Below, one piece after another: positions 10,378 through 31,103 of a stretch of 32,307 nucleotides of DNA (within the stretch, counting starts at the first letter, position 1; each line of letters starts with the position of its first letter). The translations under genes were made by a program, and so were the position numbers. The notes beneath the pieces were generated by a model. The model was not told where the DNA came from and did no database searches. It worked only from the letters and a program-made list of their open reading frames with translations. Origin of the DNA: Sheuella sp. (GTDB lineage Bacteria; Pseudomonadota; Gammaproteobacteria; Burkholderiales; Burkholderiaceae_B); assembly GCA_030650995.1 (NCBI GenBank), contig JAUSCY010000079.1, positions 1 to 32,307 on the forward strand. Reading direction: 5' to 3'.

Positions 10378-11496
10378 CTAGCGACTGCCTGCGATATCAG
10401 GGGAACAAACAGATTTGACTGATATCGTATCCAGTCGCTTTGAGACCTGATTAAATATTTCATCTGGACTTGGATTTTTTAACCAGACCAACGTATCAAT
10501 CATGCGTTGGGTAGCGGTCTCCCACGAAAATAGCTTCGCTTGGTCGAGCGCCGAGGAACGACTCAGACGCAGCGCCTTTATACAGGCCCGATGAAGGTTT
10601 TCGTCAAGTACGCCAGCAGAGCTTTCACCAATGACATTGAGAGGACCAGCAACAGGGAAAGCCGCAACAGGCAACCCACAAGCCAACGCTTCAAGCATGG
10701 CCAGACCAAAGGTATCAGTAACACTTGGGAAAACAAAAACATCTGCCTGGCTATATAACTCAGCGAGCGCATCCTGGGTCAACACACCCAGATAACGGAC
10801 GCTCGGATAGTTATGTAGCAATTTAAGTGCCAGAGGACCTTCACCAGCTACCCATTTCTGTCCAGGTAAATCAAGTTTCAAAAAAGCTTCAATATTTTTT
10901 TCTATCGCGAGACGACCGACGTATAAAAATACTGGTTCATGCGCATTAATTGATTTTTGAATGGGGCGGGGAAAAAAAGTTGAATGATCCACTCCTTGCG
11001 CCCATTGCACCACATTAGAAAAACCATTTTTTAACAAATTCCTTTTGATCGTCGGAGTCGGTGCAAGCACGCCTGATGATGCAGAATGAAACTTACGAAA
11101 TATTTTATAGATCAAGGATGTAGGGATGCCCAGCCTTGCGTGCATAAACTCAGCAAAATGCGTATGGTAAGTAGTGGTAAATTGCCATCCATTTTTTAAT
11201 GCCGCTTTACGAGCTGCCCAACCCAAAGGGCCTTGCGTCGCAATATGCATGGCATCAGGATTAAACTCTTTAATGATGATCTCGACGCGCTTTGAGGTCG
11301 TTAAAGATAAACGCATCTCAGGATAAAGCGGAAACGGCAGTGTTTTAAATTGCGCAGGCGTTAATAATTCGACAGCAATTCCCATTTTCTCAAGCTGCAC
11401 AATGGAATGACTGATCGCTCTGACTACACCACTAACCTGAGTTGCTGCTGCGTCAGAAACAATCAGGAGACGTTCAATGACTGGTAGCGACATCAT
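10378..11496 (-). CDS. GT4 lipid glycosyltransferase, Agt-like (glycosyltransferase 1)
   Basis: The 372-residue GT4 enzyme (GT-B fold) has an N-terminal acceptor domain with HIATQGPLGWAARKAA, and a donor-binding domain with FLYVGRLAIEKN and the E-x7-E region FPSVTDTFGLAMLEALACGLP. It overlaps the 3' end of the PlcP-type gene by 23 bases. The start chosen is the ATG at 11496 (or 11493), just after AAAGGAG; the frame is open further upstream inside plcP. In phosphate-starved bacteria, PlcP followed by Agt converts phospholipids to diacylglycerol and then to glycosyl- or glucuronosyl-diacylglycerol. This arrangement makes that role very likely here. The sugar donor is not known. Similar GT4 proteins include mannosyltransferases and SQD2, so that remains an alternative. 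Confidence 0.82.
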   Translation of the reverse strand: MMSLPVIERLLIVSDAAATQVSGVVRAISHSIVQLEKMGIAVELLTPAQFKTLPFPLYPEMRLSLTTSKRVEIIIKEFNPDAMHIATQGPLGWAARKAALKNGWQFTTTYHTHFAEFMHARLGIPTSLIYKIFRKFHSASSGVLAPTPTIKRNLLKNGFSNVVQWAQGVDHSTFFPRPIQKSINAHEPVFLYVGRLAIEKNIEAFLKLDLPGQKWVAGEGPLALKLLHNYPSVRYLGVLTQDALAELYSQADVFVFPSVTDTFGLAMLEALACGLPVAAFPVAGPLNVIGESSAGVLDENLHRACIKALRLSRSSALDQAKLFSWETATQRMIDTLVWLKNPSPDEIFNQVSKRLDTISVKSVCSPDIAGSR

Positions 11497-12289
11497 CCAG
11501 CTCCTTTGGCGAGTGCGAGGTGCGATAAGGCCAGAAAACAACTTTAAGCTCACCCGATTCAGTTTCAATGATCGCCGACAGACTCTCTACCCAGTCACCG
11601 TCGTTGCAATACAAAATTCCATCTATGTCACGAATCTCTGGCTTATGAATGTGGCCACACAACACACCATCAAAGCCGCGACGCCTGGCTTCGTGAGTCA
11701 GGTTTTCTTCAAAAGCCGTGATAAAGGAAACGGCATTTTTTACTTTAGTTTTTAAAAATTGGGATAAAGACCAATACGAAAGACCACACTTATGCCGGGC
11801 GTGATTAAACCAGTTATTCAAATTCAAAATGACCGAATACAGACTATCGCCAAGGTAAGCCAACCACTTCGCATGCTGAATAATCCCATCGAACAGATCA
11901 CCATGTGTGATCCACAAAACACGACCATCGAGCAATGTGTGGGTTGTATCGTCAACAATTTTTATATCACCAAATGCCATACCGAGGAATTGACGAATCA
12001 CTTCATCATGATTTCCCGCAATGTATGTCACTTGCGTTCCTTTACGGGCTTTACGAAGTATTTTCTGTACTACATCGTTATGACTTTGTTTCCAATACCA
12101 GCTTTTCTTAAGTTGCCAACCGTCAACAATGTCACCAACAAGATATAGGTAGTCGGATTCATTCCACTTTAAAAAATCCAGTAAATAATCAGCTTTACAA
12201 CCTGAAGTACCCAAATGGATATCTGAAATCCATATCGCTCTGTGACGCATGGGACGTTGGTCTAATTCATGGGGCTCAGGTGGTTTCAT
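11474..12289 (-). CDS. plcP: PlcP-type phospholipase C (calcineurin-like metallophosphoesterase)
   Basis: The 271-residue protein carries the five metallophosphoesterase motifs: SDIHLG (D23, H25), GDIVDGW (D53), GNHDE (N93, H94), THGD (H129) and GHIHKPE near residue 210. Blocks such as KKSWYWKQSHNDVVQK, LRKARKGT and CNDGDWVES match the PlcP family, often annotated as UDP-2,3-diacylglucosamine diphosphatase. PlcP of Sinorhizobium meliloti hydrolyses phosphatidylcholine and related lipids to diacylglycerol during phosphate limitation. The ATG at 12289 is preferred over a TTG at 12298. It is co-transcribed with an Agt-like glycosyltransferase and preceded by PHO-box-like repeats. An LpxH-like hydrolase is the alternative, disfavoured by the neighbour gene and regulation. 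Confidence 0.86.
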   Translation of the reverse strand: MKPPEPHELDQRPMRHRAIWISDIHLGTSGCKADYLLDFLKWNESDYLYLVGDIVDGWQLKKSWYWKQSHNDVVQKILRKARKGTQVTYIAGNHDEVIRQFLGMAFGDIKIVDDTTHTLLDGRVLWITHGDLFDGIIQHAKWLAYLGDSLYSVILNLNNWFNHARHKCGLSYWSLSQFLKTKVKNAVSFITAFEENLTHEARRRGFDGVLCGHIHKPEIRDIDGILYCNDGDWVESLSAIIETESGELKVVFWPYRTSHSPKELDDVATSH

Positions 12290-12313
12290 GAGTATCAATG
12301 CTGAACCGTTTAT

Positions 12314-12353
12314 TTGACAACCTCATTACACCTATGTGACGGTTTAGTGACCC
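12314..12353 (-). promoter_or_regulatory. PHO-box-like tandem repeats upstream of plcP
   Basis: Read on the minus strand, the core GGGTCAC-TAAA-CCGTCAC (12353 down to 12336) is a near-consensus PHO box with two 7-bp half-sites and a 4-bp spacer. Two weaker half-sites continue in the same 11-bp phase: GTGTAAT (12331-12325) and TTGTCAA (12320-12314). The core is about 46 bases upstream of the plcP ATG. PhoB binding is inferred from the pattern and from the function of the operon. Confidence 0.75.
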
Positions 12354-12361
12354 TACAGCAC

Positions 12362-13072
12362 TCAGCCCGAAAATTTACAGTGTTCGATCAGTACAAAATC
12401 AGCTCCGCGCTCAGGCTCAGCAAAGATAGCCAGAGAATCAAACATGCAATCAGGTAAAAATTCAAACTGATCACGCGCGCACTGCATGATTGACTGAATC
12501 TGTAGCTCTGAACAATCCCTTAATGGCCCTGTCAGCGAGAGATGAAAGCGAAAATGCTCAAGGACGTGTGGATACCCCCATCTCAACAGCATCGAGTCCT
12601 TTGCAAGACTCAAACCGGCGGTGCGACGACGTAACAACTCATCTGGTGGCAAAGGTGCAGAAAGAGTATGCAACTGCGTCACACATGCTCTTTCAACTCT
12701 ACAAATATCGGTGACATCTCCAGCCGGAGTAAGTGCCAGAAAATCATCCAGTCGACTCACATGTAATTTAGGTAATCTGAAAGGTTTGATTTGCGAGCAG
12801 ATCATCACCAAGGCATCTTGGAGTTGCTTAAAGCTTGCATCGGCACGTAAAGAAAAAGGAGCCTTCATCGTGGCATGCCAGCCGTACCGGCGCGGTGCAG
12901 AGGTCAGCTGGCTGAACTTTTCGGGTGCGATCAATGCTGGGCATGTCTGGCTCAGTGCAAGCTGTCGATTCGAACAACGCCCGAGCCAATGGCTGCCAGC
13001 ATTCCACCAATCACTATCTGATTGAGGCGCAAAATAAATTGCATAGCGATAAATATTTTTTAACATAGTCAT
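12362..13072 (-). CDS. Phosphonate-operon 2H phosphoesterase (DUF1045)
   Basis: The 236-residue product matches the DUF1045 'phosphonate metabolism protein' family (starts KNIYRYAIYFAP; contains RYGWHATMKAPF and FRFHLSLTG). The two H-x-T/S motifs, H66-A-T68 and H177-L-S179, define the 2H phosphoesterase superfamily, whose members hydrolyse cyclic phosphates. It is divergent from phnG. No phnP is present in the window, so it may do the PhnP step: opening 5-phosphoribosyl 1,2-cyclic phosphate made by C-P lyase. The start is uncertain: ATG at 13072 or 13066. The frame is open to 13105, but that start would lie inside the PHO-box array. Family call firm; reaction inferred. Confidence 0.83.
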   Translation of the reverse strand: MTMLKNIYRYAIYFAPQSDSDWWNAGSHWLGRCSNRQLALSQTCPALIAPEKFSQLTSAPRRYGWHATMKAPFSLRADASFKQLQDALVMICSQIKPFRLPKLHVSRLDDFLALTPAGDVTDICRVERACVTQLHTLSAPLPPDELLRRRTAGLSLAKDSMLLRWGYPHVLEHFRFHLSLTGPLRDCSELQIQSIMQCARDQFEFLPDCMFDSLAIFAEPERGADFVLIEHCKFSG

Positions 13073-13098
13073 CAGATTTGAAAATTTAAGGCAAACGC

Positions 13099-13160
13099 GT
13101 GTCATATAAATGAAATAACCGCGTCATCTATTTGTTATGTGACTGTCACTAAACATACAC
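13099..13160 (+). promoter_or_regulatory. Six-fold PHO-box-like array upstream of phnG
   Basis: Seven-base half-sites occur every 11 bp: GTGTCAT (13099), ATGAAAT (13110), GCGTCAT (13121), TTGTTAT (13132), CTGTCAC (13143) and CATACAC (13154), separated by four-base AT-leaning spacers. The sites at 13099, 13121 and 13143 are closest to CTGTCAT/C; the alternating ones are degenerate. A possible -10 element, TAAGAT, lies at 13171-13176, ten bases after the last half-site, which is the spacing expected when PhoB replaces -35 recognition. Transcription of phnGHIJKLM under PhoB is inferred. Confidence 0.72.
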
Positions 13161-13230
13161 ACTGGATATTTAAGATGGTTGACTTCGTTGTAACCGCAAT
13201 GAACTCAATTTCTTAAACAATATCAGGCCT

Positions 13231-13731
13231 ATGTTGCAATCTGCTGACAGCACGACTCAAACCTGCAGTGAGACTCGCTCACAATGGATAGCACTACTCG
13301 CACGGGCTCCCATCAATCTTCTTGAACAAGCGCTTGGAGATCAATCTGATGAGCAACCTGAGTGGCTGAGAAAACCGGAAACCGGTCTCATGATGATAGA
13401 AGCCAGAGCAGGCGGTACAGGAGAGCGGTTTAATCTTGGCGAGATCAGTATTACCAGATGTGCATTGAGATTAAATGACAGCCGAGCTGATGCTCCTGTT
13501 GGCATTGCCTATGTACTGGGACGCTCACACAAACACGCCAGGCTGGCAGCCATGCTAGATGCCATGTTTTTGACGATGGCTGATCCGTCATCCAAAGAAA
13601 AAATACTCGCTCCAATCAAACAACATCTGCAGGAACAGCGTACCAGCCGCGAGCGACGTACTGCAACAAGCAAAGTCGAGTTTTTTACTATCGCGAGAGA
13701 GTCCGGCACCAATGATGAGTCAGAGGAATAA
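13231..13731 (+). CDS. phnG: C-P lyase core subunit PhnG
   Basis: This 166-residue protein (E. coli PhnG is about 150) is part of the PhnGHIJ core complex. With PhnI, PhnH and PhnL it attaches the phosphonate to C1 of the ribose of ATP, displacing adenine. Recognisable blocks are RSQWIALLARA, TGLMMIEARAGGTGERFNLGEISITRCALRL and the His-bearing YVLGRSHKHARLAAMLDA. It is the first gene of the phnGHIJKLM operon; phnH starts two bases after its stop. A strong ribosome-binding site is not obvious before the ATG at 13231. Confidence 0.95.
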   Translation: MLQSADSTTQTCSETRSQWIALLARAPINLLEQALGDQSDEQPEWLRKPETGLMMIEARAGGTGERFNLGEISITRCALRLNDSRADAPVGIAYVLGRSHKHARLAAMLDAMFLTMADPSSKEKILAPIKQHLQEQRTSRERRTATSKVEFFTIARESGTNDESEE

Positions 13732-13733
13732 GC

Positions 13734-14387
13734 ATGCCAACCATTGATCTATCAAAAGTCGGCGCGGGATTTAATGATCCAGTTCATGACAGTCAGCAGG
13801 TTTTCAGGAATTCTCTTCAGGCTCTATCCCATCCCGGAGAGATTGTTGGACTAACAATCCACAAAGGAATCCTGAAACACACTCAACCAAGTGCTGCCGC
13901 ACTATTGCTTGCACTGCTCGATTCAGATAGTCGCCTATGGACAACGCCGACTATCGCTGCGAGTGACACAGCACACTGGATTGTTTTTCATACTAATTGC
14001 AAGCTTGTTACAAACCCTGCCGAGGCTGACTTTGCATGGATTGAAAGCATAGAAGACTTACCAGAATTAAGCAGTTTTAATCAAGGTACAGATGAGTATC
14101 CCGAACTTTCAACGACTTGTCTGATCAATGTTACCGGCTTTGAAAGCGATACAGACGCACAACAGAATTTGACACTACAGGGACCGGGAATTCCTGACAC
14201 CCGCCAACTATCCCTGGGTTCTGTTTCTATTACACAACTCAATCACTTTCTCAGCCAGTGGCGTGCCAACAAACTGCTCTTTCCAAAAGGAGTAGATGTT
14301 TTTCTTTGTGCACCCCATCAAATTGCAGGTTTGCCGCGAACAGTACATCTGTCGCGGACTGAATCGACTCCATTCAATAAAGGCTGA
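13734..14387 (+). CDS. phnH: C-P lyase core subunit PhnH
   Basis: The 217-residue product matches PhnH, a structural partner of PhnG, PhnI and PhnJ in the carbon-phosphorus lyase core. Characteristic stretches are the N-terminal GFNDPVHDSQQVFRNSLQALSHPGEI, the central LLALLDSDSRLWTTP, and near the C-terminus FPKGVDVFLCAPHQIAGLPRTV. It is slightly longer than the E. coli protein (about 194), mainly through a looser middle region around residues 130-150. Two bases separate it from phnG and two from phnI, so the genes are tightly co-translated. Confidence 0.95.
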   Translation: MPTIDLSKVGAGFNDPVHDSQQVFRNSLQALSHPGEIVGLTIHKGILKHTQPSAAALLLALLDSDSRLWTTPTIAASDTAHWIVFHTNCKLVTNPAEADFAWIESIEDLPELSSFNQGTDEYPELSTTCLINVTGFESDTDAQQNLTLQGPGIPDTRQLSLGSVSITQLNHFLSQWRANKLLFPKGVDVFLCAPHQIAGLPRTVHLSRTESTPFNKG

Positions 14388-14389
14388 AT

Positions 14390-15553
14390 ATGTACGTTGC
14401 CGTAAAAGGTGGTGAACAAGCCATCCTCAATAGTTACCGCCTACTTGAAACACAACGCAGGGGTGATCTGACTGTACCGGAATTAAGCATTGCCCAAATC
14501 ATGCAGCAGATGAAACTTGCTGTTGATCGTGTGATGACAGAAGGTTCTGTTTATGACAAGGAACTCGCGGCGCTCGCAATTAAACAAGCGAGCGGAGACC
14601 TGATAGAAGCGATATTTCTGCTCAGGGCCTATCGCGCAACCCTTCCCCGTTTAGGGTCAACCAAACCCCTCAATACAGGAAAGATGCAGCTTGATCGGCG
14701 CATCTCTGCAACATTCAAGGACTTGCCTGGTGGCCAGATTCTTGGGCCTACTTACGATTACACGCAAAGATTACTGGATTTCTCTCTACTCGCGTCTCAA
14801 GACGATATTGCTTCTTCACAAGCAGCAGTAGCGAATCAAATGCAGAACATCAACCATGCGTCAGCAGAAGAATCACATGTAGAGGCGTGCAAACAAACTA
14901 CTGCAACAAAAGTAATCGAATTACTCAATCAGGAAAATCTGATTGAAAAATATCCAGTACCTCCTGGTGATCCCGCCCCAAATGATTTAACACGCAAACC
15001 CGTGAAATTCCCGGCAGACCGTGCGACCCGCTTGCAAAACCTCGCAAGAGGTGACGAAGGATTCCTCTTATCCATGGCCTACTCTACACAGAGAGGATAT
15101 GCGCATAGCCATCCCTTTGTGGGTGAAATCCGACTAGGAACATTAGAGATTGAAATTGAACCCGAAGAGCTTGGCTTTGTTATCTCTATTGGTGATATTG
15201 AAGTGACCGAGTGCGAAATGGTGAATCAATTCGCAGGCAGTAAAAAGGAACCCCCGAAATTCACACGCGGCTATGGACTAGCCTTTGGTCATAGCGAAAG
15301 AAAAGCAATGGCGATGAGCCTTGTTGATCGCTCTCTCAGAGCTGCGGAGCTCGGGGAAGAAGTCAAATCACCAGCACAAATGCCTGAATTTGTTCTCTCG
15401 CACAGCGATAGTCTCGAGGCATCAGGCTTTGTACAGCATCTTAAATTGCCGCATTACGTCGACTTTCAGGCTGAACTGGATTTAGTCAGAAAAATGCGTG
15501 CCCACTCAACCCAGCAATCAGATAAAGATAATGAGGTTGAGCGCAATGCCTAA
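14390..15553 (+). CDS. phnI: C-P lyase core subunit PhnI
   Basis: PhnI (387 residues here, about 354 in E. coli) is the nucleosidase component that enables exchange of adenine on ATP for the phosphonate. Family hallmarks are MYVAVKGGEQAILNSYRLLE at the start, SAEESHVEACKQT, the MAYSTQRGYAHSHPFVGEIRLG block, and ECEMVNQF followed by TRGYGLAFGHSERKAMAMSLVDRSL near the C-terminus. A variable low-complexity stretch after residue 140 and a polar tail explain the extra length. Its last eight bases overlap the preferred phnJ start. Confidence 0.95.
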   Translation: MYVAVKGGEQAILNSYRLLETQRRGDLTVPELSIAQIMQQMKLAVDRVMTEGSVYDKELAALAIKQASGDLIEAIFLLRAYRATLPRLGSTKPLNTGKMQLDRRISATFKDLPGGQILGPTYDYTQRLLDFSLLASQDDIASSQAAVANQMQNINHASAEESHVEACKQTTATKVIELLNQENLIEKYPVPPGDPAPNDLTRKPVKFPADRATRLQNLARGDEGFLLSMAYSTQRGYAHSHPFVGEIRLGTLEIEIEPEELGFVISIGDIEVTECEMVNQFAGSKKEPPKFTRGYGLAFGHSERKAMAMSLVDRSLRAAELGEEVKSPAQMPEFVLSHSDSLEASGFVQHLKLPHYVDFQAELDLVRKMRAHSTQQSDKDNEVERNA

Positions 15554-16460
15554 TTTATTGAATTCCGAAAATACTCAGGCTACAGGCGAGGATAGTTTTG
15601 TCGGGGATAGCTTTAACTTTGCCTATCTGGACGAGCGCACCAAGCGCATGATCCGGCGTGCCATCCTTAAAGCAGTAGCGATTCCGGGTTATCAGGTCCC
15701 TTTTGGTTCGCGTGAAATGCCTCTGCCCTACGGCTGGGGCACTGGTGGTATCCAAGTCACAGCATCAATCATCGGTCAGTCAGACGTGCTGAAGGTCATT
15801 GACCAAGGGTCTGACGATACGGTCAATGCTGTGAATATCCGTCGATTTTTTCAACGTACAACGCAAGTGTCGATCACGACACGCACATCAGAAGCAACAT
15901 TAATTCAAACCCGTCACCGGATACCTGAACATCCACTGAACGAAAATCAAATCCTCGTTTATCAGGTTCCTGTCCCTGAACCCATGCAGTGGTTAGAGCC
16001 GCGCGAGAGTGAAACACGTACCTTGCATGGCTTGGCAGAGTATGGGCTCATGCACGTAGAGCTCTATGAAGACATCTCACGATACGGTCATATCGCTACA
16101 ACTTATGACTATCCCGTACTCGTCAATGATCGTTACATCATGTCGCCCTCGCCTATCCCGAAATTTGATAATCCCAAAATGCATATGAATCCAGCCTTAC
16201 AACTATTCGGTGCTGGCAGGGAAAAACGTATTTATGCTGTTCCGCCTTACACAAAAGTAGAAAGTCTGGGTTTTGAAGACCATCCCTTCGAAATACAGAA
16301 GTGGGATGCAGTCTGTGAGCTCTGTCAGGCGTCAGACAGCTTTCTCGATGAAGTCATTACAGATGATCAAGGTACGCGTATTCATGTTTGCTCAGACTCT
16401 GACTACTGTCAGACCAGGCAAGACGAACAGCAAGTCAGTCATAGTCAGGCACAGCTATGA
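15546..16460 (+). CDS. phnJ: C-P lyase radical SAM subunit PhnJ
   Basis: PhnJ is the radical S-adenosylmethionine enzyme that cleaves the carbon-phosphorus bond of ribose-1-phosphonate-5-phosphate, giving the alkane and 5-phosphoribosyl 1,2-cyclic phosphate. The product (304 residues; E. coli about 281) carries the conserved core FNFAYLDERTKRMIRRAIL, and the C-terminal cysteines in CELC and CSDSDYC are spaced C-x2-C-x21-C-x5-C as in E. coli. Those residues supply the iron-sulfur ligands and the catalytic Cys. The N-terminal extension is poorly conserved, so the start is uncertain: the ATG at 15546, with GAGG at 15533-15536, is preferred; 15531 and 15498 are alternatives. Confidence 0.96.
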   Translation: MPNLLNSENTQATGEDSFVGDSFNFAYLDERTKRMIRRAILKAVAIPGYQVPFGSREMPLPYGWGTGGIQVTASIIGQSDVLKVIDQGSDDTVNAVNIRRFFQRTTQVSITTRTSEATLIQTRHRIPEHPLNENQILVYQVPVPEPMQWLEPRESETRTLHGLAEYGLMHVELYEDISRYGHIATTYDYPVLVNDRYIMSPSPIPKFDNPKMHMNPALQLFGAGREKRIYAVPPYTKVESLGFEDHPFEIQKWDAVCELCQASDSFLDEVITDDQGTRIHVCSDSDYCQTRQDEQQVSHSQAQL

Positions 16461-17242
16461 ATAACCAGCATAGCCAGCCTCTGCTCGAAGTCAGGGGTAT
16501 TGCAAAAAGCTACGGCGAACGCGTAGCACTTAACCACGCAAGTTTCGACTTATGGCCAGGCGAGGTCCTGGCGATAGTCGGAGAGTCGGGTTCAGGAAAA
16601 ACGACCTTATTAAATGCCATTTCTGCCAGACAGATGCCTGACCGCGGCGAAGTGAAGTTTATGAATAGAAACGGTGAGGCACTCGACGTATATGGGCTGA
16701 GTATTGCACAGCAAAGACTTCTCGCACGAACGGACTGGGGATTTGTCCATCAGCATGCAGCGGATGGCTTGCGTATGGATGTCTCGGCCGGGGCAAATGT
16801 GGGCGAGCGCTTAATGGCGTTAGGCGAAAGGCACTATGGCAAACTCAGAACAATCGCGCAGCAATGGCTTGAACGCGTTGAAATTGATCCCTCCAGGATT
16901 GATGACACGCCAACGGGATTCTCAGGTGGTATGCGACAGCGACTTCAGATCGCGCGCAATCTGGTAACAGAGCCCAGACTGATATTCATGGATGAGCCGA
17001 CCTCTGGACTCGATGTGTCCGTTCAGGCGAAATTACTCGATTTACTGAGAAAGCTCACTCAGACCATGCACCTCTCAGCACTGATCGTGACGCATGATCT
17101 CGCAGTTGCGAGACTCATTTCGCATCGAATGATCGTCATGCAAAACGGAAATATTGTTGAGGAAGGCCTCACCGATCAGGTGCTGGATGATCCTCAACAT
17201 CCCTATACACAGCTGCTGGTTTCATCGGTACTTCAAGCATGA
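16457..17242 (+). CDS. phnK: C-P lyase associated ABC-type ATPase PhnK
   Basis: The 261-residue ATPase of the PhnK family docks on PhnJ in the C-P lyase complex instead of working in a membrane transporter. Motifs seen: Walker A GESGSGKTT, signature FSGGMRQRLQIARNL, Walker B LIFMDEPTSGLDVSV, switch His VTHDLAVARL and the C-terminal DDPQHPYTQLLVSSVL shared with oligopeptide-type ATPases. It overlaps phnJ by ATGA (16457-16460) and phnL likewise (17239-17242). Confidence 0.94.
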   Translation: MNNQHSQPLLEVRGIAKSYGERVALNHASFDLWPGEVLAIVGESGSGKTTLLNAISARQMPDRGEVKFMNRNGEALDVYGLSIAQQRLLARTDWGFVHQHAADGLRMDVSAGANVGERLMALGERHYGKLRTIAQQWLERVEIDPSRIDDTPTGFSGGMRQRLQIARNLVTEPRLIFMDEPTSGLDVSVQAKLLDLLRKLTQTMHLSALIVTHDLAVARLISHRMIVMQNGNIVEEGLTDQVLDDPQHPYTQLLVSSVLQA

Positions 17243-19109: not shown

Positions 19110-19141
19110 TTGCATCTCTGCTGCTGCTCTGTGCAATAAAT

Positions 19142-19170: not shown

Positions 19171-19215
19171 ATGCGTTGAGCATACTGAATATCTATTCAA
19201 CTAGTGAGGTTCGCC

Positions 19216-20085: not shown

Positions 20086-20112
20086 TTTATAAACTTTTAT
20101 CAAAGAAATCTC

Positions 20113-21072: not shown

Positions 21073-21077
21073 TCATC

Positions 21078-21872
21078 ATGCCAGCTACCCACACAATTTC
21101 TCAATACTCTCCCCATGTCAAACGTAACTGGGGTTGGCAATTAACCTGGGTAGTTGTCGTTTTACTGTTAGCCGCATCCTGGCAAGGTGCCGAGATGCGG
21201 CCAATGGAATTAATACGCGACTCGGGAAACATGGCGACCTATGCTCGCGATTTTTTTCCACCCAACTTTAGTGACTGGCGCCTCTATCTCGACGAGATGC
21301 TTATCACCGTTCAGATCGCCCTCTGGGGAACTGCTCTCGCAGTCGTAACAGCGATTCCACTGTCATTACTTGCCTCCTCGAACATTGCTCCTGTGTGGGT
21401 CACACAGCCAATGAGAAGACTCATGGACGGTTGCCGTGCGATAAATGAAATGGTATTTGCCATGCTATTTGTCGTGGCCGTTGGACTCGGACCTTTTGCA
21501 GGTGTGCTCGCATTATGGATCCACACAACCGGCATCCTTGCCAAACTATTTTCTGAAGCAGTCGAAGCCATCCATCCTGAACCTGTCGAGGGGATCCGAT
21601 CGACAGGTGCAAGCGCTTTGCACGAGATTATTTACGGGGTGATCCCACAAGTCATCCCCCTGTGGGTATCTTTTGCGCTGTACCGCTTCGAGTCAAATGT
21701 ACGCTCTGCCACAGTCGTTGGCATGGTGGGGGCGGGTGGTATAGGTGTCATCCTGTGGGACATCATGCGCAGCTTTCAGTATGCACAAACCACAGCGGTC
21801 ATCATCATCATCATTCTGACTGTTACCGTGATCGACCTGGTTTCCTCACTGATCAGAAAAGCACTTATTTAA
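21078..21872 (+). CDS. phnE: Phosphonate ABC transporter permease PhnE
   Basis: The 264-residue inner-membrane permease has about six hydrophobic segments. Binding-protein-dependent transport motifs include ISLITVQIA-like [19 protein letters not shown], the characteristic [27 protein letters not shown], and the EAA-type coupling loop [25 protein letters not shown]. Only one PhnE is encoded, so it would act as a homodimer. It starts five bases after phnD. Confidence 0.94.
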
Positions 21873-21886: not shown

Positions 21887-22453
21887 ATGGCTCTGACACT
21901 CAACGATATAACGACCTTACTCACGACACAAGGCGATAAACAATACGGAGGCGAAGCGGTCTCTCAGCTAGAGCACGCTTTGCAATGTGCGTACCTCGCC
22001 GAATGCGCGCAGGAGTCCGATGAGACCATTGTTGCTGCCCTGCTGCATGACATTGGACATCTGCTCTCTGCAGGTAAAAGCATTACGCTGAGTAGTGCTT
22101 TGATATCTAGTACTGATTCAACCGATGATCTGCATCAATACATCGCACTGCCTTTTATTCGAACTTTGTTTTCTGATGCCGTGCTTGAACCAATCAAGCT
22201 GCATGTAGATGCTAAAAAATATCTATGTGCGGTGGATAAAAGCTACTGGTCGACACTTTCAGAAGCTTCAAAGAAAAGTCTTGAGATTCAGGGTGGGATT
22301 TATTCTGATCAAGAAGCCTTGAATTTTGAGGCAAGTAATTATGGGCAACACGCTATTCGATTGCGTCGCTATGACGACTCGGCCAAAATACCGGGTGCAC
22401 TGACCCCAGCACTAGATCACTATCTGAACATCATGCATCGCGTTGCTATTTGA
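21887..22453 (+). CDS. PhnZ-like HD-domain phosphonate oxygenase
   Basis: The 188-residue HD protein matches the HDIG family associated with phosphonate degradation operons; its best known member, PhnZ, is a mixed-valence di-iron oxygenase cleaving (R)-1-hydroxy-2-aminoethylphosphonate to glycine and phosphate. All expected residues are visible: Y20 and E23 (as PhnZ Y24/E27), H30, H54-D55, H83, H106 and D163/D164 as metal ligands. The ATG at 21887 follows AGAGGA; a longer open frame to 21662 overlaps phnE and is not used. It is the last gene after phnCDE. No PhnY hydroxylase is present, so the exact substrate is unsure. Confidence 0.85.
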   Translation: MALTLNDITTLLTTQGDKQYGGEAVSQLEHALQCAYLAECAQESDETIVAALLHDIGHLLSAGKSITLSSALISSTDSTDDLHQYIALPFIRTLFSDAVLEPIKLHVDAKKYLCAVDKSYWSTLSEASKKSLEIQGGIYSDQEALNFEASNYGQHAIRLRRYDDSAKIPGALTPALDHYLNIMHRVAI

Positions 22454-22469
22454 TTAATTTTTATAAAAT

Positions 22470-23663
22470 TTAAATCGTAGGGATCCCCACCAGCGATCTA
22501 AAAATTCCTTCAGTACGTGCCACGACAGAGTTCCAGTCATGGTCAACAGCTGTCTGACGGGACTGATTGCGAATCCTTGTCCTCAGCTCAACATTCTGCA
22601 GGACACGCGTGCAAGCATCGACCAGGCCTTGCTCATTCTGGATACTAATCAACATGCCATTATGTTCGTGCTGAATCAACTGCCCTGCGGCAGCATGATC
22701 ATAAGCAATCACTGCTAAGCCGCTCGCCATCGCCTCAATCGTTACGTTGCCGAAGGTTTCTGTCAAACTTGGAAATATAAATAAATCTGCGCTTGCGTAG
22801 TGTTCCACCAGGGATTTACCCGTTTTCTGTCCCGTAAATATAGCCTCAGGACAACTTATCTCAAGCGCATGTCTGAGTGGACCATCACCTACAACGACTA
22901 GTTTGACGGGTAAATTTTTAGCCTGCAACGCATGAAAGCATCGCATGACCATATTAAGATTTTTTTCTACGGCAAGTCGACCTACTGACAACAAAACCTG
23001 AGTATCAGGCGTCACGCCCCAGCTATCCCTCAAGGCCTGCGAGCGAAATTCTGGTGAAAAATGTTCGGTGTCTACACCACGGGGTACAACCATTAACTTT
23101 TCAAATCCGATTTTTGATAGTTCAGCCATCAGGCCTTGTGTAGGCACCATTGTGCAGTGCGTTGAATTATGAAACTTACGCATATAGGAAACAATAGCGC
23201 CCTTGAGCCATCCGAAACCGTAAAACTGGCTGTAAGCATGAAAGTTCGTGCGGAAGTCAGAACTGGTTGGAATATTCAGTTTTCTGGCTGCACGTGCCGC
23301 AGACCATCCCAGCGGTCCTTCAGTCGCAATATGAACCAGATCTGGACGCTGCTTAAGCCAAAGCTTCTGCAATGCTCCTTGCGCAGGCAAGCCTAAGCGC
23401 AATTGTTTGTACATTGGTATAGGAGCACCACGCATGAGCACTTCCTGAAAACCATTTTCCATCAGAGGCGAGCCATCCAGGCGATGCTTAGGCCTGACCA
23501 GCATCAAGCTATGCCCGCGCGCCCTTAACCCCTCTACTATTTTTGAAATTGTATGAGCCACCCCATTGATATCTGGAGGATAAGTCTCAGTCACGACTGC
23601 TATTCTCAAGCTGGGTTGTGCGGGATAGAAACGGTCAATCTGGAGGGGATCAAAATCCGACAT
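22470..23663 (-). CDS. GT4 glycosyltransferase 2, Agt/SQD2-like
   Basis: The 397-residue GT4 enzyme shows an N-terminal Rossmann domain starting LRIAVVTETYPPDINGVAHTI, the block HIATEGPLGWSAARAA, VPRGVDTEHFSP, VLLSVGRLAVEKNLNMV and FPSLTETFGNVTIEAMASGL with the donor-binding Glu pair. It is a paralogue of glycosyltransferase 1 (shared HIAT-GPLGW, RKFH and GVD blocks). It is convergent with the phn operon and has PHO-box-like sequence upstream. Related enzymes are Agt glycolipid synthases, SQD2 sulfolipid synthase and mannosyltransferases. The likely role is to glycosylate diacylglycerol or extend a glycolipid made by glycosyltransferase 1. Confidence 0.82.
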   Translation of the reverse strand: MSDFDPLQIDRFYPAQPSLRIAVVTETYPPDINGVAHTISKIVEGLRARGHSLMLVRPKHRLDGSPLMENGFQEVLMRGAPIPMYKQLRLGLPAQGALQKLWLKQRPDLVHIATEGPLGWSAARAARKLNIPTSSDFRTNFHAYSQFYGFGWLKGAIVSYMRKFHNSTHCTMVPTQGLMAELSKIGFEKLMVVPRGVDTEHFSPEFRSQALRDSWGVTPDTQVLLSVGRLAVEKNLNMVMRCFHALQAKNLPVKLVVVGDGPLRHALEISCPEAIFTGQKTGKSLVEHYASADLFIFPSLTETFGNVTIEAMASGLAVIAYDHAAAGQLIQHEHNGMLISIQNEQGLVDACTRVLQNVELRTRIRNQSRQTAVDHDWNSVVARTEGIFRSLVGIPTI

Positions 23664-23706
23664 CTTTGCTCTTTTTGCTGAGATGCTCCAACTGTAATGA
23701 ATGAAT

Positions 23707-23724
23707 ATAACGTTTCAATGACAA
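23707..23724 (-). promoter_or_regulatory. PHO-box-like pair upstream of glycosyltransferase 2
   Basis: On the minus strand, TTGTCAT-TGAA-ACGTTAT reads from 23724 to 23707. Ten bases downstream lies TACAGT (about 23696-23691), a fair -10 hexamer, with the ATG at 23663. The second half-site is degenerate (4 of 7). Confidence 0.55.
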
Positions 23725-23741
23725 TCATATTTTTTTATTGA

Positions 23742-23792
23742 CTGACTTATTTTTGACAAATAACAGCAATATGAATGTCACTAAAAATTCAT
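23742..23792 (+). promoter_or_regulatory. PHO-box-like array upstream of the DUF962-like gene
   Basis: Half-sites in 11-bp phase on the plus strand are CTGACTT (23742), TTGACAA (23753), CAGCAAT (23764), ATGTCAC (23775) and AATTCAT (23786). The best is ATGTCAC followed by TAAA, the same spacer seen upstream of plcP and phnG. TATGAA at 23770-23775 could be a -10 element for the first pair. The segment 23742-23759 also reads as a pair on the minus strand (TTGTCAA-AAAT-AAGTCAG) and could serve both divergent genes. Confidence 0.5.
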
Positions 23793-23883
23793 GTTTACGC
23801 AGCATTGGTCTGAAATAATTTCATCTGATTTTTCAATGCCAACATTCGAACTATCAAAATCTGAAATTATAAAAAGGACCATC

Positions 23884-24492
23884 ATGAAAGAACTGCTTGA
23901 GACGCTCAGGTTGCAGCGCTGGGATGATCATCGCTACTACCACCATAGTCGCATCAACCAGAGTTTGCATCTGGTCAGCGCATTGTCGTTTTTAGTTTCC
24001 TATGTTTTATTGTTTATTAATCCAGTGATTGCCGCACTACTCGCATGGCTGGTATCCATGACAACACGTCAGGCAGGTCATTTTTTCTTTGAACCAAGGG
24101 GCTACGATCATGTCAATCAGGCTAGCCATGCGCATAAGGAAATGATCAAAGTAGGCTACAACCTTCACCGTAAGATTGTTTTGTTGAGTATCTGGGCAGC
24201 TATACCCATCATCGCTTATTTTGCTCCCCAGTATCTGACATGGGCAGTGCCTGAGGCCTACGAGGATTCTTTTATACGCATAGTCGGTATGGCATGGCTG
24301 TTTTTAGGCGTTGCGGGCTTATTGTTCAGAGCCATTCAATTATTTTTGAAGGAAGACTTCAAAAGCGCACTCGCCTGGGTCATCAAAATCCTGACCGATC
24401 CATTCCATGATGTGTTGCTTTATTACCGTTCGCCTCTCTATCTCATGAAAGGCGAACTGATCGATCCCATGCCGCACGTGCAATCACATTAA
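23884..24492 (+). CDS. Membrane protein, Mpo1/DUF962-like
   Basis: The 202-residue product has about four hydrophobic segments (near residues 25-60, 90-113 and 130-155). His/Asn/Glu residues are arranged YYHHSRINQSLHLVSA and RQAGHFFFEPRGYDH, which resembles the DUF962/Mpo1 family, whose yeast member is a membrane Fe(II) dioxygenase acting on 2-hydroxy fatty acids. Two further His lie in NQASHAHKEM and one in DPFHDVLLYY. The ATG at 23884 is preferred because AAAGGA lies five bases upstream; the frame is open to 23791. It sits divergent from glycosyltransferase 2 behind PHO-box-like repeats. A lipid-modifying or fatty-acid-oxidising role is inferred, not shown. Confidence 0.6.
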   Translation: MKELLETLRLQRWDDHRYYHHSRINQSLHLVSALSFLVSYVLLFINPVIAALLAWLVSMTTRQAGHFFFEPRGYDHVNQASHAHKEMIKVGYNLHRKIVLLSIWAAIPIIAYFAPQYLTWAVPEAYEDSFIRIVGMAWLFLGVAGLLFRAIQLFLKEDFKSALAWVIKILTDPFHDVLLYYRSPLYLMKGELIDPMPHVQSH

Positions 24493-24496
24493 GTGT

Positions 24497-26161
24497 CTAG
24501 CGCCAGTACTGACTCAACATTTCTCTCAGTATCTGGCGCTTGATATGCTTATTAGTCTGACCTGCAGGTGTCCACCACCAGCCATCCGCGGACATGCGCT
24601 GAGCAGCACGAACGAAACGCTCAGTCAGTGCATCAAAGTCTTCCTCGGTGAAGTTCAAACTGAAAATCAGTCGTCCTGTACCGACCCAGCTCAACGCAAT
24701 GCCTTCACTACGCATATAAAACTGAAGCATCCAGTTGTAGCGGCTCGGTATGTCAAACAATATGATCCAGACCGTCGACATCGCTTCAACGCGCAATGGC
24801 AGCCCGTTTTGTTTGAATTGATTATTCAGTCTGGCCTTTCTGGTAAGCCAGGTTTCTTCAAGCACCCGATAGGTCTGCCGGACCGCCTCTGTATCCATCC
24901 TATTGAGGAATACGTTCATCGCTCCCATCACGTAGGGGTGAGCGTTAAACGTCCCGCGGGCAAAACAAATATCTGCAGGTCGGTCATTTCTGAATCGCGT
25001 CATCCATTTATCTTTACCGCAAACAACGCCTATCGGCAGTCCGCCTGCCAGAGTTTTTCCGTAAGTCACCACATCCGCTTCAATACCGAAATATTCCTGT
25101 GCCCCACCCCGCGCGAGACGGAACCCCATAAATACTTCATCAAAAATCAGAACAATATTTTTAGCCGTACATATTTCTCGCAGGGCTTTGAGCCACATGG
25201 TATAGGCTTGTCTGTCGAAGTAAGCGGTGCGACTGCCATCAATGGCCGTATTGTCTGTCGGAGCCGATTGGTTTGGTTGCATGGCCTGCAAGGGGTTCAC
25301 CAGCACGCAGGCAATATCTTGACGATTGCGCAACACACGCAAGGTGTTCGCATGCATCTCGCGCAATGTCAGCGTATCTTTGGACGGTGGCATTGGATTT
25401 CCAGGCCCTGGCTGCACGTCATCCCACCAGCCGTGATAGGCACCCGTGAATCTTACGATTTTATTTCGCCCGGTCTGATAGCGTGCAACCCTCACAGCCT
25501 GCATCACAGCTTCTGTACCCGACATATGAAAGGAAACTTGGTCTTTGTTCGAAATTGCACACAGCTTTTGAATATTTTCCAGCACACAGGGGTGATAGGC
25601 TCCCAGTACCGGGCCGAGTGCGTGGGCTCGACGACTGCCCTCCTCTATGCAGGACTTATAAAAATCCTGACCGAACACATTCACTCCATAAGAACCGGTC
25701 ACATCAATCAGACGCACGCCATCCATATCGATAAGCCATACGCCATTACTACTTTGCATATAACTGCCAATTTGAATGTGTTGTTGCAATACATCACGAA
25801 ACTGGTATGGCACACGGTACTGACTGATGAATTGCAAGTCTGCAATCATTTTTTTGGACTCCGCAGTTTGTCGCAAAGTCAGAGGGCTGCGTTGCGTCAA
25901 CGCCTGTCCGAGCACGGTCAAACCAAGCTGTCTTTTCTGTCTGATTTCGGCTGGTGCCCCATCGATATCAAACCATCGTTCAGCCGGGTAGGAATACCCG
26001 GGAATGCGACGTGTAATACGTTTCGCCCATCTCAAGTGACCGCCAAGCGAAGGGTTTTTTGCAAGCGAAAGTTGCAATCTTTGCCATGCTTTGCGCATCA
26101 GCTGGAGGAATGCGGCAAGCACCACCAGACCGACAAGAATATTTACAAATGAAACGGTCAT
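24497..26161 (-). CDS. Membrane-anchored class III PLP aminotransferase
   Basis: The 554-residue product begins with one hydrophobic helix (residues about 4-22) followed by a basic stretch and a roughly 110-residue extension. Then comes a class III aminotransferase of the glutamate-1-semialdehyde aminomutase type. Active-site features are intact: SGTEAV (214-219), AYHGWWDD (241-248), DEV (341-343) and the PLP-binding K369 in TYGKTLAGGLPIG. The anchor and extension are absent from HemL, so it is not the tetrapyrrole enzyme. It ends four bases from the convergent DUF962-like gene and faces psd across a 67-base gap. A role in amino-lipid headgroup formation fits the setting but is conjecture. 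Confidence 0.75.
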   Translation of the reverse strand: MTVSFVNILVGLVVLAAFLQLMRKAWQRLQLSLAKNPSLGGHLRWAKRITRRIPGYSYPAERWFDIDGAPAEIRQKRQLGLTVLGQALTQRSPLTLRQTAESKKMIADLQFISQYRVPYQFRDVLQQHIQIGSYMQSSNGVWLIDMDGVRLIDVTGSYGVNVFGQDFYKSCIEEGSRRAHALGPVLGAYHPCVLENIQKLCAISNKDQVSFHMSGTEAVMQAVRVARYQTGRNKIVRFTGAYHGWWDDVQPGPGNPMPPSKDTLTLREMHANTLRVLRNRQDIACVLVNPLQAMQPNQSAPTDNTAIDGSRTAYFDRQAYTMWLKALREICTAKNIVLIFDEVFMGFRLARGGAQEYFGIEADVVTYGKTLAGGLPIGVVCGKDKWMTRFRNDRPADICFARGTFNAHPYVMGAMNVFLNRMDTEAVRQTYRVLEETWLTRKARLNNQFKQNGLPLRVEAMSTVWIILFDIPSRYNWMLQFYMRSEGIALSWVGTGRLIFSLNFTEEDFDALTERFVRAAQRMSADGWWWTPAGQTNKHIKRQILREMLSQYWR

Positions 26162-26206
26162 ATAGCTACGCCTTATCGAGTGATTTACTTTTCAAACCTC
26201 CTTTTT

Positions 26207-26224
26207 ATGACTCTTGGATGACGG
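26207..26224 (-). promoter_or_regulatory. Possible PHO box upstream of the aminotransferase
   Basis: On the minus strand CCGTCAT-CCAA-GAGTCAT (26224 to 26207) has the 7-4-7 PHO-box layout and lies about 46 bases before the aminotransferase ATG. No convincing -10 hexamer is seen at the expected distance (TTTGAA at 26196-26191 is poor), so the call is tentative. Confidence 0.42.
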
Positions 26225-26228
26225 ATTG

Positions 26229-27164
26229 ATGAACATCAGAGCAACTATTCAAAAAATATTTTCTCAGGAGGATCTGAATTTCCTCCTGACCAACCGTATT
26301 CCCAGGCAGTCCGCGACACATTTCATCGGCTGGTTCAGTCAGATCAGAGTGCCCTGGATTCGCGATCTATCAATTTATGTCTGGAAACTTTTTACAGAAC
26401 TGGATTTAAGTGAAGCTAAAAAAGATAAATTTGATAGCTTGCACGATTGCTTTATCCGGGAACTGCGTCCTGGCGCAAGACCGGTCGACAATGATCCAAA
26501 AATACTGACCAGCCCATGTGACGCGATTGTTGGCGCTTGCGGCCAGGTTGTGAACGGCCAGGTTTTTCAGGCTAAAGGCTTTCCCTACACACTCAGCGAT
26601 TTGTTTGGACATGAAACTGACACAAGCCAGTGGCAAGATGGTGAGTATGTGACCTTACGGCTGACCTCTTCGATGTACCACCGGTTCCACGCTCCCTATG
26701 ACGGCTCGATGCTTCGTGTGAATTACATTTCTGGCGATACATGGAACGTCAATCCTGTCGCTCTCAAACGTATAGAAAAATTATTCTGTAAAAATGAGCG
26801 AGCGTTGTTATCCCTGGAGATCGGCGAACAGCGTTACCCGATTGCGCTGGTTCCCGTTGCAGCAATTCTGGTCGCTAGCATTCGTTTACACGGAATTGAC
26901 ACGCAGTTCCGCTCTGGCTGGACCGGTGAGAAAAACTTTAATTGCAATGTTCAATTTAAAAAGGGCGAAGAGCTTGGATGGTTTCAGCATGGATCGACCA
27001 TCATTGTTTTCGCACCAAAAGGTTTTACCTTAGCTGACAACATTAGCCCTGGACAGCACATCAAAATGGGGCAAGCTTTGATGGCGATGCCATTACTGAC
27101 TGAACATAGCTCTCTGCATACCCCCTTCTCATCCACGCACTCAGACGGAAATCTTCTCTCTTGA
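26229..27164 (+). CDS. psd: Phosphatidylserine decarboxylase proenzyme
   Basis: The 311-residue product matches the longer bacterial Psd form, which makes phosphatidylethanolamine at the inner membrane. The pyruvoyl-forming site is HGST (254-257, Ser256), where E. coli has LGST. The other catalytic residues are visible in SPCDA (D98) and MYHRFHAPYDG (H151, H154). The N-terminal NFLLTNRIPRQSATHFIGWF is typical. The frame is open to a TTG at 26214; the ATG at 26229 is preferred, although its ribosome-binding site is weak. Its stop overlaps the lplT start, so synthesis of phosphatidylethanolamine and lysolipid handling are coupled. Confidence 0.92.
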   Translation: MNIRATIQKIFSQEDLNFLLTNRIPRQSATHFIGWFSQIRVPWIRDLSIYVWKLFTELDLSEAKKDKFDSLHDCFIRELRPGARPVDNDPKILTSPCDAIVGACGQVVNGQVFQAKGFPYTLSDLFGHETDTSQWQDGEYVTLRLTSSMYHRFHAPYDGSMLRVNYISGDTWNVNPVALKRIEKLFCKNERALLSLEIGEQRYPIALVPVAAILVASIRLHGIDTQFRSGWTGEKNFNCNVQFKKGEELGWFQHGSTIIVFAPKGFTLADNISPGQHIKMGQALMAMPLLTEHSSLHTPFSSTHSDGNLLS

Positions 27165-28462
27165 ACCGCGGCTTTTATCTTGTCATTGCGGCCCAGACGC
27201 TTTCCTCACTAGCGGATAACGCGCTATTTATCGCAGCTATCGCACTTATTCAACAACTTGATGGTCCTGTCTGGGTGCCACCGATGATCAAATGGGGCGT
27301 TGCGGCAAGCTTTGTTTTGCTAGCTCCATTTGTAGGAGCGTTTGCCGATGCATACCCCAAAGGCAGAGTCATGTTCATCACCAATGCGCTCAAGGTGGTG
27401 GGCTGCCTGCTGATGTTCTGTTATGGCATTTTCGGACTATCCACCACAGGCCAGATTATGTTGATCTGTTTTGCTTACTCGATCGTAGGCATGGGCGCTG
27501 CGGCCTACTCACCTGCGAAATATGGGATCGTCACTGAGATGCTACCTCCGGGGCTACTAGTAGCCGGAAATAGCTGGATAGAGGGAATGACGGTGATTTC
27601 CATCATCATTGGCGCGGTCCTCGGTGGCGTATTAATCTCCCCTGTGGTCTCTGATTTCTTACTCAGTCACCCAAGTTTAAGTGGATGGTTAAACACTCCT
27701 GCGGAGACTGCAATTTTCATGATCAGTTTCCTGTATGCAGGGGCTTCAGTCATGAATTTATTCATTCCTAATACGCATATTCGTTACCCTGTGCAGTCTA
27801 AAAATCCAATCCGACTGATCAGTAACTTTAAAAATTATATTTGTATTTTGTGGCGTGACTCACTGGGTCAGATCTCATTATCTGTCACCACACTATTCTG
27901 GGGCGCAGGTGCCACGCTCCAATTGATTGTGATCGAATGGAGTCGTCAAAATCTCGGCTACCGCCTGGATCAGTCTTCAATCCTGATGGGCGTGGCCGCA
28001 CTTGGAACGGTAGTCGGTGCAATCGCTGCTGCCCGCGTGCCTCTTAAAGCCTCACTCAGCGTTTTACCCGTCGGTGTAGCAATGGGACTTGTCGTATTGG
28101 TGATGCCGTTTATTTATAATATTTGGGCGGTATACAGTCTGTTGCTACTGGTCGGCGTACTCTCCGGTTTCTTTGTTGTACCCATGAATGCATTACTTCA
28201 GCATCGCGGCCATGTTTTATTATCGGCAGGCCACTCCATCGCTGTTCAAAACTTTAACGAACAGTTAAATATCTTGCTCATGGTCTCGCTCTACTCACTC
28301 ATGCTCTGGCTGGAAATTCCAATCAATCTGATCGTGGTGCTTTTTGGATTATCGGTTGCGGGACTCATGATCGTTATCATTTTATGGAGTCGTGCAAATA
28401 TAAAAAGAAAGCCCGACCTCCTGGAGGAAATCGGGCAAGATGGCTGGGGTAAGGCTATATAA
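27161..28462 (+). CDS. lplT: Lysophospholipid transporter, MFS family (LplT)
   Basis: The 433-residue, twelve-helix MFS protein matches LplT, which flips lysophosphatidylethanolamine across the inner membrane for re-acylation. Family features are GFYLVIAAQTLSSLADNALFI at the start, the APFVGAFADAYPKGRVMF loop, GMGAAAYSPAKYGIVTEMLP and, near the C-terminus, QNFNEQLNILLMV. The start is a TTG at 27161 overlapping the psd TGA. No aas acyltransferase gene is adjacent, unlike in E. coli. The 3' end contains the terminator of the opposing liv operon. Confidence 0.9.
   Translation: MNRGFYLVIAAQTLSSLADNALFIAAIALIQQLDGPVWVPPMIKWGVAASFVLLAPFVGAFADAYPKGRVMFITNALKVVGCLLMFCYGIFGLSTTGQIMLICFAYSIVGMGAAAYSPAKYGIVTEMLPPGLLVAGNSWIEGMTVISIIIGAVLGGVLISPVVSDFLLSHPSLSGWLNTPAETAIFMISFLYAGASVMNLFIPNTHIRYPVQSKNPIRLISNFKNYICILWRDSLGQISLSVTTLFWGAGATLQLIVIEWSRQNLGYRLDQSSILMGVAALGTVVGAIAAARVPLKASLSVLPVGVAMGLVVLVMPFIYNIWAVYSLLLLVGVLSGFFVVPMNALLQHRGHVLLSAGHSIAVQNFNEQLNILLMVSLYSLMLWLEIPINLIVVLFGLSVAGLMIVIILWSRANIKRKPDLLEEIGQDGWGKAI
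28402..28436 (-). terminator. Terminator of the second liv operon, inside the lplT 3' end
   Basis: Read on the minus strand, GCCCGA (28436-28431) pairs with TCGGGC (28416-28411), with inner CTCC/GGAG pairing, and is followed by TTTCTTTTTA (28410 onward). It lies within the last codons of lplT, 40-65 bases after the livF stop. Confidence 0.75.
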
Positions 28463-31101: not shown

Positions 31102-31103
31102 TT

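Follow-up and report, generated by a model that had tools for sequence, protein, structure and literature searches.

The import and cleavage of phosphonates by PhnCDE and carbon-phosphorus (C-P) lyase, and the replacement of phospholipids by glycolipids through PlcP and Agt, are established pathways. The plcP section of PMC4796936 sorts plcP neighbourhoods into six types, in which the gene is accompanied by glycosyltransferases or by btaAB. Here we describe an island at positions 10378-28462 of a 32,307-nucleotide stretch of DNA (the window, meaning the whole stretch) in which genes of both pathways stand together with a class III aminotransferase (AT3), a DUF962 protein and a homologue of phosphatidylserine decarboxylase (Psd). 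The window corresponds to contig C49 in an assembly of 151 contigs and 3.13 Mb, 91% complete, from a freshwater bacterium that we name as a Zwartia bin (Burkholderiales). Pfam and NCBIfam scans found all the genes named in an original prediction for this region where that prediction had put them, and its grouping of PlcP and two Agt-like glycosyltransferases in one island with C-P lyase was likewise borne out. The most conserved part of the island, which the prediction had overlooked, is the trio of AT3, DUF962 protein and Psd homologue, and this trio is also found outside the order and the class. We interpret this core as a lipid module for phosphate starvation that is so far undescribed; no description of the trio was found in open-licence PMC papers, a search that tests its absence in print only weakly.

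Conservation of the core was evaluated in the best 80 of 256 AT3 matches, a set of loci that is biased to close relatives and has full flanks in 32 cases. Within 9 kb of AT3, these loci carry psd in 75 cases, DUF962 in 73, agtB in 59, plcP in 45 and lplT in 43, while a family 4 glycosyltransferase (GT4) gene lies within 6 kb in 65. One further psd, in locus L126, is absent from the open reading frame (ORF) calls, which take the first possible start, and in the four remaining psd-less and the seven DUF962-less loci AT3 stands at a contig end. AT3 orthologues were counted at E <= 1e-90 in the order (40 of 399 genomes) and at E <= 1e-60 in the class (11 of 369) and the phylum (25 of 398). DUF962-like proteins were detected in 25 of 398 phylum genomes as well (E <= 1e-15). 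Treating these two draws of 398 as one set, whose handles agree, and in statistics that ignore the kinship of genomes, AT3 and DUF962 occur together in 24 genomes, AT3 alone in G908, DUF962 alone in G1030 and neither in 372; the genomes of both belong to the identical 11 genera. Outside the order, regions were taken for 20 of the 30 AT3 genomes counted, and these 20 loci place DUF962 near AT3 in 17, psd in 16 and GT4 in 15. Six of them (L194, L195, L196, L199, L200 and L206) carry AT3, a large GT4-containing protein, psd and DUF962, all on one strand. This quartet is followed by OlsF in L194 (816.1 bits, cut-off 620), by a protein 87% identical to it in L195 and by UDP-glucose dehydrogenase in L200; in L203 a PhoX-like protein is encoded between DUF962 and psd, and a methyltransferase nearest PmtA, below the cut-off, adjoins DUF962 in L190 and on a plasmid of Sphingomonas parapaucimobilis. 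Such company points to membrane lipids and phosphate stress. That plasmid, NZ_CP155753 (L209, L242), carries a set of psd, AT3, DUF962 and methyltransferase about 10 kb from genes for an acyl carrier protein (ACP), a protein of class I/II aminotransferase fold and an NAD(P)H-binding protein, perhaps sphingolipid genes. A candidate partner gene at L189:6916-7677 was rejected, as it looks like a spurious antisense frame and has no Pfam match. Many loci are metagenome bins, and the names on some are doubtful: bins labelled Bordetella parapertussis or Klebsiella pneumoniae (L088, L097, L099, L100, L124, L152) carry a Burkholderiales-type set and are probably mislabelled.

The island may be viewed as a phosphorus-economy locus controlled by PhoB and built in three layers, the third being an amine-lipid module, a view that we hold with evenly divided confidence. 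In the first layer, PhnCDE and C-P lyase would import phosphonates and release phosphate. In the second, PlcP would cleave the phospholipid head group, and AgtA and AgtB would add sugars to the diacylglycerol to yield phosphorus-free glycolipids. In the third, the DUF962 protein would serve as a metal-dependent membrane oxygenase that creates a carbonyl on a lipid, AT3 would transaminate that carbonyl to an amine, and the Psd-like decarboxylase, where present, would strip the carboxyl from an amino-acid-type intermediate, so that a nitrogen-bearing lipid would take the place of phosphatidylethanolamine. A lipid-remodelling role of the trio is very probable, while an amine lipid as its product has about the same chance of being right as of being wrong. 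We advance only tentatively, and with somewhat more doubt than belief, the specific proposal that AT3 and DUF962 form a new oxygenase-transaminase pair which, together with a re-tasked Psd-like decarboxylase, makes a new phosphorus-free amine lipid from diacylglycerol or glycolipid.

The link between AT3 and DUF962 extends to gene fusion. Two loci, L207 and L208, encode one fused protein, as their AT3 frame continues into a DUF962 domain (hhalign 99.2%, E 2.5e-19 for L207; BLASTP 5e-20 for L208). Counting these fusions, all but one of the 20 loci outside the order have DUF962; in the exception, L204, the contig ends 232 bases past AT3. The fused genes adjoin a methyltransferase gene, plcP, a GT4 gene and a DUF3419 gene (in L207, and in L208 by 65% identity), DUF3419 being what we take to be the BtaA family. 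Because of the fusion and the genome co-occurrence, there is strong evidence that the two proteins would act together. A frame at L207:7004-7741 was considered as a hidden DUF962 gene and rejected on comparison, appearing by eye to encode a HAD-type hydrolase. A second DUF962-like gene exists in some trio genomes (L115:12152-12814; G1092:C1:3845529-3846110).

AT3 itself is a stand-alone protein of about 550 residues with the class III aminotransferase fold and the pyridoxal phosphate (PLP) lysine, which is invariant in 46 sequences. Its N-terminus is hydrophobic, and the protein is predicted to be membrane-anchored there. The predicted structure has a mean pLDDT of 88.4. By both profile and fold, the best solved neighbours of AT3 are structures of the mycosubtilin synthase AMT domain (6kfm and 6kfu), matched over AT3 residues 97-528; their profile score is 219.8 bits, that of the best glutamate-1-semialdehyde aminomutase 154.5. 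The Mpo1-like Pfam family PF06127 is matched by 60 of 61 aligned relatives of the DUF962 protein at E <= 0.01. H47, H51, H60, H97, E101, D106, D203 and D207 belong to a group of positions conserved in 93% or more of 80 sequences and also in each of the two fused forms; these His, Glu and Asp residues are as expected of a metal site, for which iron would be the candidate by analogy with the Mpo1 family. The same two proteins might instead act on acyl chains, AT3 aminating an oxo-acyl group and the Mpo1-like protein oxidising a 2-hydroxy acyl chain, to give an amino-fatty-acid or sphingoid-like lipid. The mycosubtilin synthase relationship of AT3, the proximity of the DUF962 protein to the 2-hydroxy-palmitic acid dioxygenase Mpo1 and the possible sphingolipid genes near the Sphingomonas parapaucimobilis set all agree with such chemistry; however, no acyl-ACP or acyltransferase gene stands among the window's core genes, and the usual neighbours are the Psd-like decarboxylase and GT4. 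We consider action on acyl chains unlikely, though deserving of attention.

The original prediction had listed the third core gene simply as Psd. A Psd family gene is indeed present, but it is a second, divergent paralogue and not the housekeeping enzyme; the latter assignment was rejected in view of extra genome copies, co-occurrence with AT3 and a separate clade. The host genome holds the cluster copy, a short-form copy on contig C143 and a fragment on C33. Among 61 relatives, at least two Psd matches were found in 24 of the 26 with AT3 (E <= 1e-90) versus 2 of the 35 without it. A tree of 43 cluster sequences (26 from named loci, 16 from the 20 other loci and that of the window) and 8 long-form housekeeping sequences, short forms being excluded, separated the two groups by long branches with support 100/100. 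The catalytic residues D98 and H151 and the GST self-cleavage motif G255-S256-T257 are invariant in 30 sequences. The position of Escherichia coli Tyr137 holds Arg in all 43 cluster sequences and Tyr in all 8 housekeeping ones; the counterpart of E. coli Ser166 in the alignment is Asn173, which does not vary among 30 cluster sequences, and Val is found at the Val167 position. An excerpt of PMC7952604 gives Tyr137, Ser166 and Val167 as phosphate contacts. A substrate other than phosphatidylserine is thus suggested for the homologue, judged from these aligned residues.

It could also be that the trio does no more than serve PlcP: the Psd-like enzyme would make the PlcP substrate phosphatidylethanolamine from phosphatidylserine, and AT3 would salvage the freed phosphoethanolamine, as do ethanolamine-phosphate phospho-lyases, which have the class III fold. 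The unaltered catalytic residues of the Psd homologue would suit this explanation. So would the 45 of 80 loci that have plcP close to AT3, and the occurrence of Arg at the Tyr137 position elsewhere in the family (PMC7952604). Yet AT3 is apparently membrane-anchored and nearest to AMT and aminomutase proteins, DUF962 is left without a role, and just 4 of the 20 loci outside the order have plcP nearby, so we judge such a feeding role improbable.

In the second layer, the PlcP and Agt labels are assigned at family level, from domain, motif and gene neighbour. The metallophosphoesterase adjoins a GT4 glycosyltransferase gene, agtA, and scores far under the cut-offs for LpxH. PlcP matches occur in 43 of the 61 relatives, of which the weak matches in G052 and G060 were dropped for the AT3/PlcP co-occurrence count, whose Fisher values likewise ignore kinship. 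The GT4 protein of the six one-strand loci (L194, at 3674-6355, and its five counterparts) has about 890-960 residues with the GT4 part C-terminal. Its first 520 residues gave no Pfam match in the four proteins scanned; those of L194 had no solved relative (best E 0.29) and gave a weak match to CehA/McbA metallohydrolases, 23.7 bits against a cut-off of 80. This large protein might perform PlcP's job in fused form.

PHO-box-like sites were scored against a consensus, with significance taken from 1000 dinucleotide shuffles per region. The repeats that had been claimed before five transcription units were confirmed by this assay (Table 1). Two other island regions gave 82/1000 (phnC/phnD) and 587/1000 (MBL/SDR), so that five of seven regions are high, and five flanking control regions were equalled by 159, 359, 657, 884 and 937 of 1000 shuffles. 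The repeats are spaced by 11 bases in several of the five sites, and the host genome encodes PhoB (367.7 bits against a cut-off of 296.2), which would be the regulator. At p <= 0.05, the divergent DUF962/GT promoters of relatives were positive in 50 of 57 cases versus 15 of 37 control divergent promoters, the latter figure marking a raised background of the shuffle tests on relatives. Counted by gene at the same threshold, agtB was positive in 47/59 and DUF962 in 56/70, but plcP in 13/44, AT3 in 20/76, psd in 17/75 and phnC in 4/11, compared with 78/381 control ORFs. Outside the order, the region upstream of AT3 was positive in 13 of 20 loci, a count that stands without a control set there, and the near-consensus CTGTCATGAATCTGTCAGC is common to L189 and L190, each from a large genome outside the class. 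The evidence across relatives is mixed. That the trio has no special phosphate tie, and is placed here by chance or for another stress, would be in keeping with the lack of enrichment at the psd/AT3 promoter in Burkholderiales and the 2 of 26 AT3-positive relatives that have no PlcP match. The DUF962/GT promoters, the AT3 promoters outside the order, the near-consensus site of L189 and L190 and the nearby plcP, btaA-like, OlsF and PhoX-like genes all speak against this explanation, which we regard as highly improbable.

In the phosphonate part of the island, PhnG, PhnH, PhnK, PhnL, PhnM, PhnC, PhnD and PhnE each exceed an NCBIfam cut-off, PhnI and PhnJ pass Pfam cut-offs with no NCBIfam match, and the seven C-P lyase genes from phnG to phnM are all encoded together. 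A motif search located CX2CX21CX5C in PhnJ, presumably the radical-SAM cysteine pattern of this protein. The HD oxygenase, scored on an over-long frame, fell just under TIGR03276 and DUF1045 remained below TIGR03223 (225 bits against 248.95), both passing their Pfam cut-offs; neither phnN nor phnP was recognised among the window genes scanned with Pfam and NCBIfam. PhnJ matches occur in 23 of the 61 relatives. With PlcP taken at E < 1e-20, 22 relatives have both PlcP and PhnJ, and in 13 of these, all of the window's genus, the two lie on one contig about 3 kb apart. In the remaining 9 they lie on different contigs or far apart (0.54 Mb on one contig in G036), many of the assemblies being fragmented. 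C-P lyase genes are shown by only 12 of the 80 AT3 loci, and by 2 of the 32 that are fully flanked. The Comamonadaceae loci L114, L116 and L157 have phnG, DUF1045, one ORF of about 200 residues (without a Pfam match in L116), plcP and then the trio. In Zwartia hollandica (L039 at 10465-16718, genome G005), the place of C-P lyase is taken by phnCDE and four enzyme genes (iron-type alcohol dehydrogenase, FAD oxidoreductase, HAD hydrolase and HD oxygenase), and L038, L042 and L043 show a similar gene order. Some Zwartia relatives also carry, beside plcP or the phosphonate genes, a gene whose product has GT28 as its C-terminal domain and weakly matches monogalactosyldiacylglycerol (MGDG) synthase (L034:11160-12308; L039:16693-17823).

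Because C-P lyase is found in so few AT3 loci and other phosphonate genes stand in Zwartia hollandica, the phosphonate part is a recurrent but exchangeable neighbour of the lipid genes. The original prediction had treated C-P lyase and the lipid genes as one conserved regulon unit whose joint presence is the main feature. The close spacing in 13 of 22 genomes and the Comamonadaceae order uphold a recurring joint locus; its general conservation does not follow, given that all 13 belong to one genus, that C-P lyase is rare among the 80 loci and that other genes substitute for it in Zwartia relatives. We accord the single-unit explanation only a slim chance. Coordinates of the island are collected in Table 1; on either side of it lies a separate set of genes for a branched-chain-type ABC transporter, at 3724-8477 and 28475-32141 of the window.

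Table 1 Features of the island, with positions in the window, strand and basis of the assignment
Feature	Position	Strand	Basis
agtA, GT4 glycosyltransferase	10378..11490	-	Pfam Glyco_transf_4 and Glyco_trans_1_4; likely start overlaps plcP end
plcP, metallophosphoesterase	11474..12298	-	Pfam Metallophos; DxHxG, GDxxD, GNHD and GHxH motifs
PHO-box-like repeats upstream of plcP	12313..12353	-	equalled by 8/1000 shuffles
DUF1045, putative phosphonate metabolism protein	12362..13105	-	Pfam PF06299; TIGR03223 under cut-off
PHO-box-like repeats, DUF1045/phnG	13121..13161	+	equalled by 4/1000 shuffles
phnGHIJKLM, C-P lyase operon	13231..19109	+	Pfam/NCBIfam; PhnJ cysteine pattern
PHO-box-like repeats, phnM/phnC	19131..19171	+	equalled by 0/1000 shuffles
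phnCDE, phosphonate ABC transporter	19204..21872	+	NCBIfam TIGR02315, TIGR03431 and TIGR01097 over cut-off
HD-domain oxygenase, PhnZ-like	21887..22453	+	TIGR03276, 210.6 bits vs 214.6; Pfam HD
agtB, second GT4 glycosyltransferase	22470..23663	-	Pfam; member of conserved neighbourhood, near AT3 in 59/80 loci
PHO-box-like repeats, agtB/DUF962	23706..23777	-	equalled by 18/1000 shuffles; 50/57 orthologous divergent promoters at p <= 0.05
DUF962/Mpo1-like membrane protein, core gene	23791..24492	+	near AT3 in 73/80 loci
AT3, N-terminally anchored (predicted) class III aminotransferase, core gene	24497..26161	-	PLP lysine K369
PHO-box-like site, AT3/psd homologue	26206..26224	-	equalled by 6/1000 shuffles; Burkholderiales orthologous promoters not enriched
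psd homologue, separate subfamily, core gene	26229..27164	+	catalytic residues; tree
lplT, lysophospholipid transporter homologue	27161..28462	+	NF008397, 538.6 bits vs 297; 4-base overlap with psd; near AT3 in 43/80 loci

Several results weigh against an amine-lipid module under PhoB control. No enzyme of the window is obviously able to attach an amino-acid-type head group, and the host genome, at 91% completeness, gave no match to BtaA (DUF3419). The window's DUF962 protein reached 22.2 bits against the cut-off of 24 for PF06127, for which reason it is labelled Mpo1-like only, and its model had no PDB fold match at E <= 0.001. The domain of mycosubtilin synthase that AT3 most resembles acts on an acyl chain and not on a head group. 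The fused-gene loci L207 and L208 lack a psd homologue within the stretch fetched, and plcP is scarce near AT3 outside the order, as noted above. In Burkholderiales, 16 of 75 psd/AT3 promoters were positive at p <= 0.05, which is no enrichment, and by gene lplT (2/42), phnG (0/9), DUF1045 (0/7) and agtA (0/7) were likewise not enriched over the control ORFs. Finally, the Psd homologue may still use phosphatidylserine, since Arg occupies the Tyr137 position in 15% of the PSD family according to the excerpt of PMC7952604. Apart from these points, the host genome encodes a GNAT protein of the OlsB-type Pfam family (G000:C4:13774-14079; 115.5 bits against 22.4), because of which it may also make an ornithine-type lipid.

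Membrane remodelling is a means by which bacteria of lakes, soils and seas save phosphorus. If the proposed module is real, it would give Proteobacteria one more general way of meeting phosphate starvation, besides betaine and ornithine-type lipids, and the cell would retain an amine head group after the loss of phosphatidylethanolamine. An amine lipid made by the trio would also explain how phosphatidylethanolamine is replaced in groups without betaine lipids. The trio or parts of it are present in cultured strains of Zwartia, Leptothrix, Sphaerotilus, Pseudorhodoferax and Sphingomonas, which makes the proposal testable. Two Rhodoferax bins, D15.bin.32 and D15.bin.5 (L116, L120), also have the trio beside C-P lyase. 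Both are listed in PMC10734540, on lake methane from methylphosphonate, where their source is given as phosphate-amended samples; the arrangement would tie phosphorus saving to a source of methane.

The components of the island were compared with known systems. The betaine lipid pathway (BtaAB) resembles the locus as a phosphorus-free nitrogen lipid pathway beside plcP, and a DUF3419 gene adjoins the fused AT3-DUF962 genes, but the host genome gave no BtaA match. As for the Mpo1 family, 60 of 61 members of the DUF962 set match its Pfam entry at E <= 0.01, and the protein keeps several His residues; unlike Mpo1, it has a conserved C-terminal part with WxxKxxTDPxxD and a constant aminotransferase companion. 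The mycosubtilin AMT domain is the best profile and fold match of AT3, but is a domain of a synthase, whereas AT3 stands alone with a predicted N-terminal anchor, or is joined to DUF962 in two genomes. The Psd homologue keeps the catalytic residues and GST motif of the E. coli-type decarboxylase but forms its own clade on a long branch, with Arg and Asn at two phosphate-contact positions. The phosphonate genes follow the known C-P lyase operon and PhnCDE in the ordering of phnGHIJKLM and phnCDE and in a DUF1045 gene divergent from phnG, and differ in their position beside plcP in part of the window's genus. With the PlcP-Agt remodelling described in portions of PMC4796936 and PMC9239053, the island shares plcP, a GT4 gene that follows it or lies close by, and PHO-box-like sites; the plcP section of PMC4796936 names no C-P lyase, aminotransferase or DUF962, and to that scheme the window adds AT3, DUF962, the Psd homologue and LplT.

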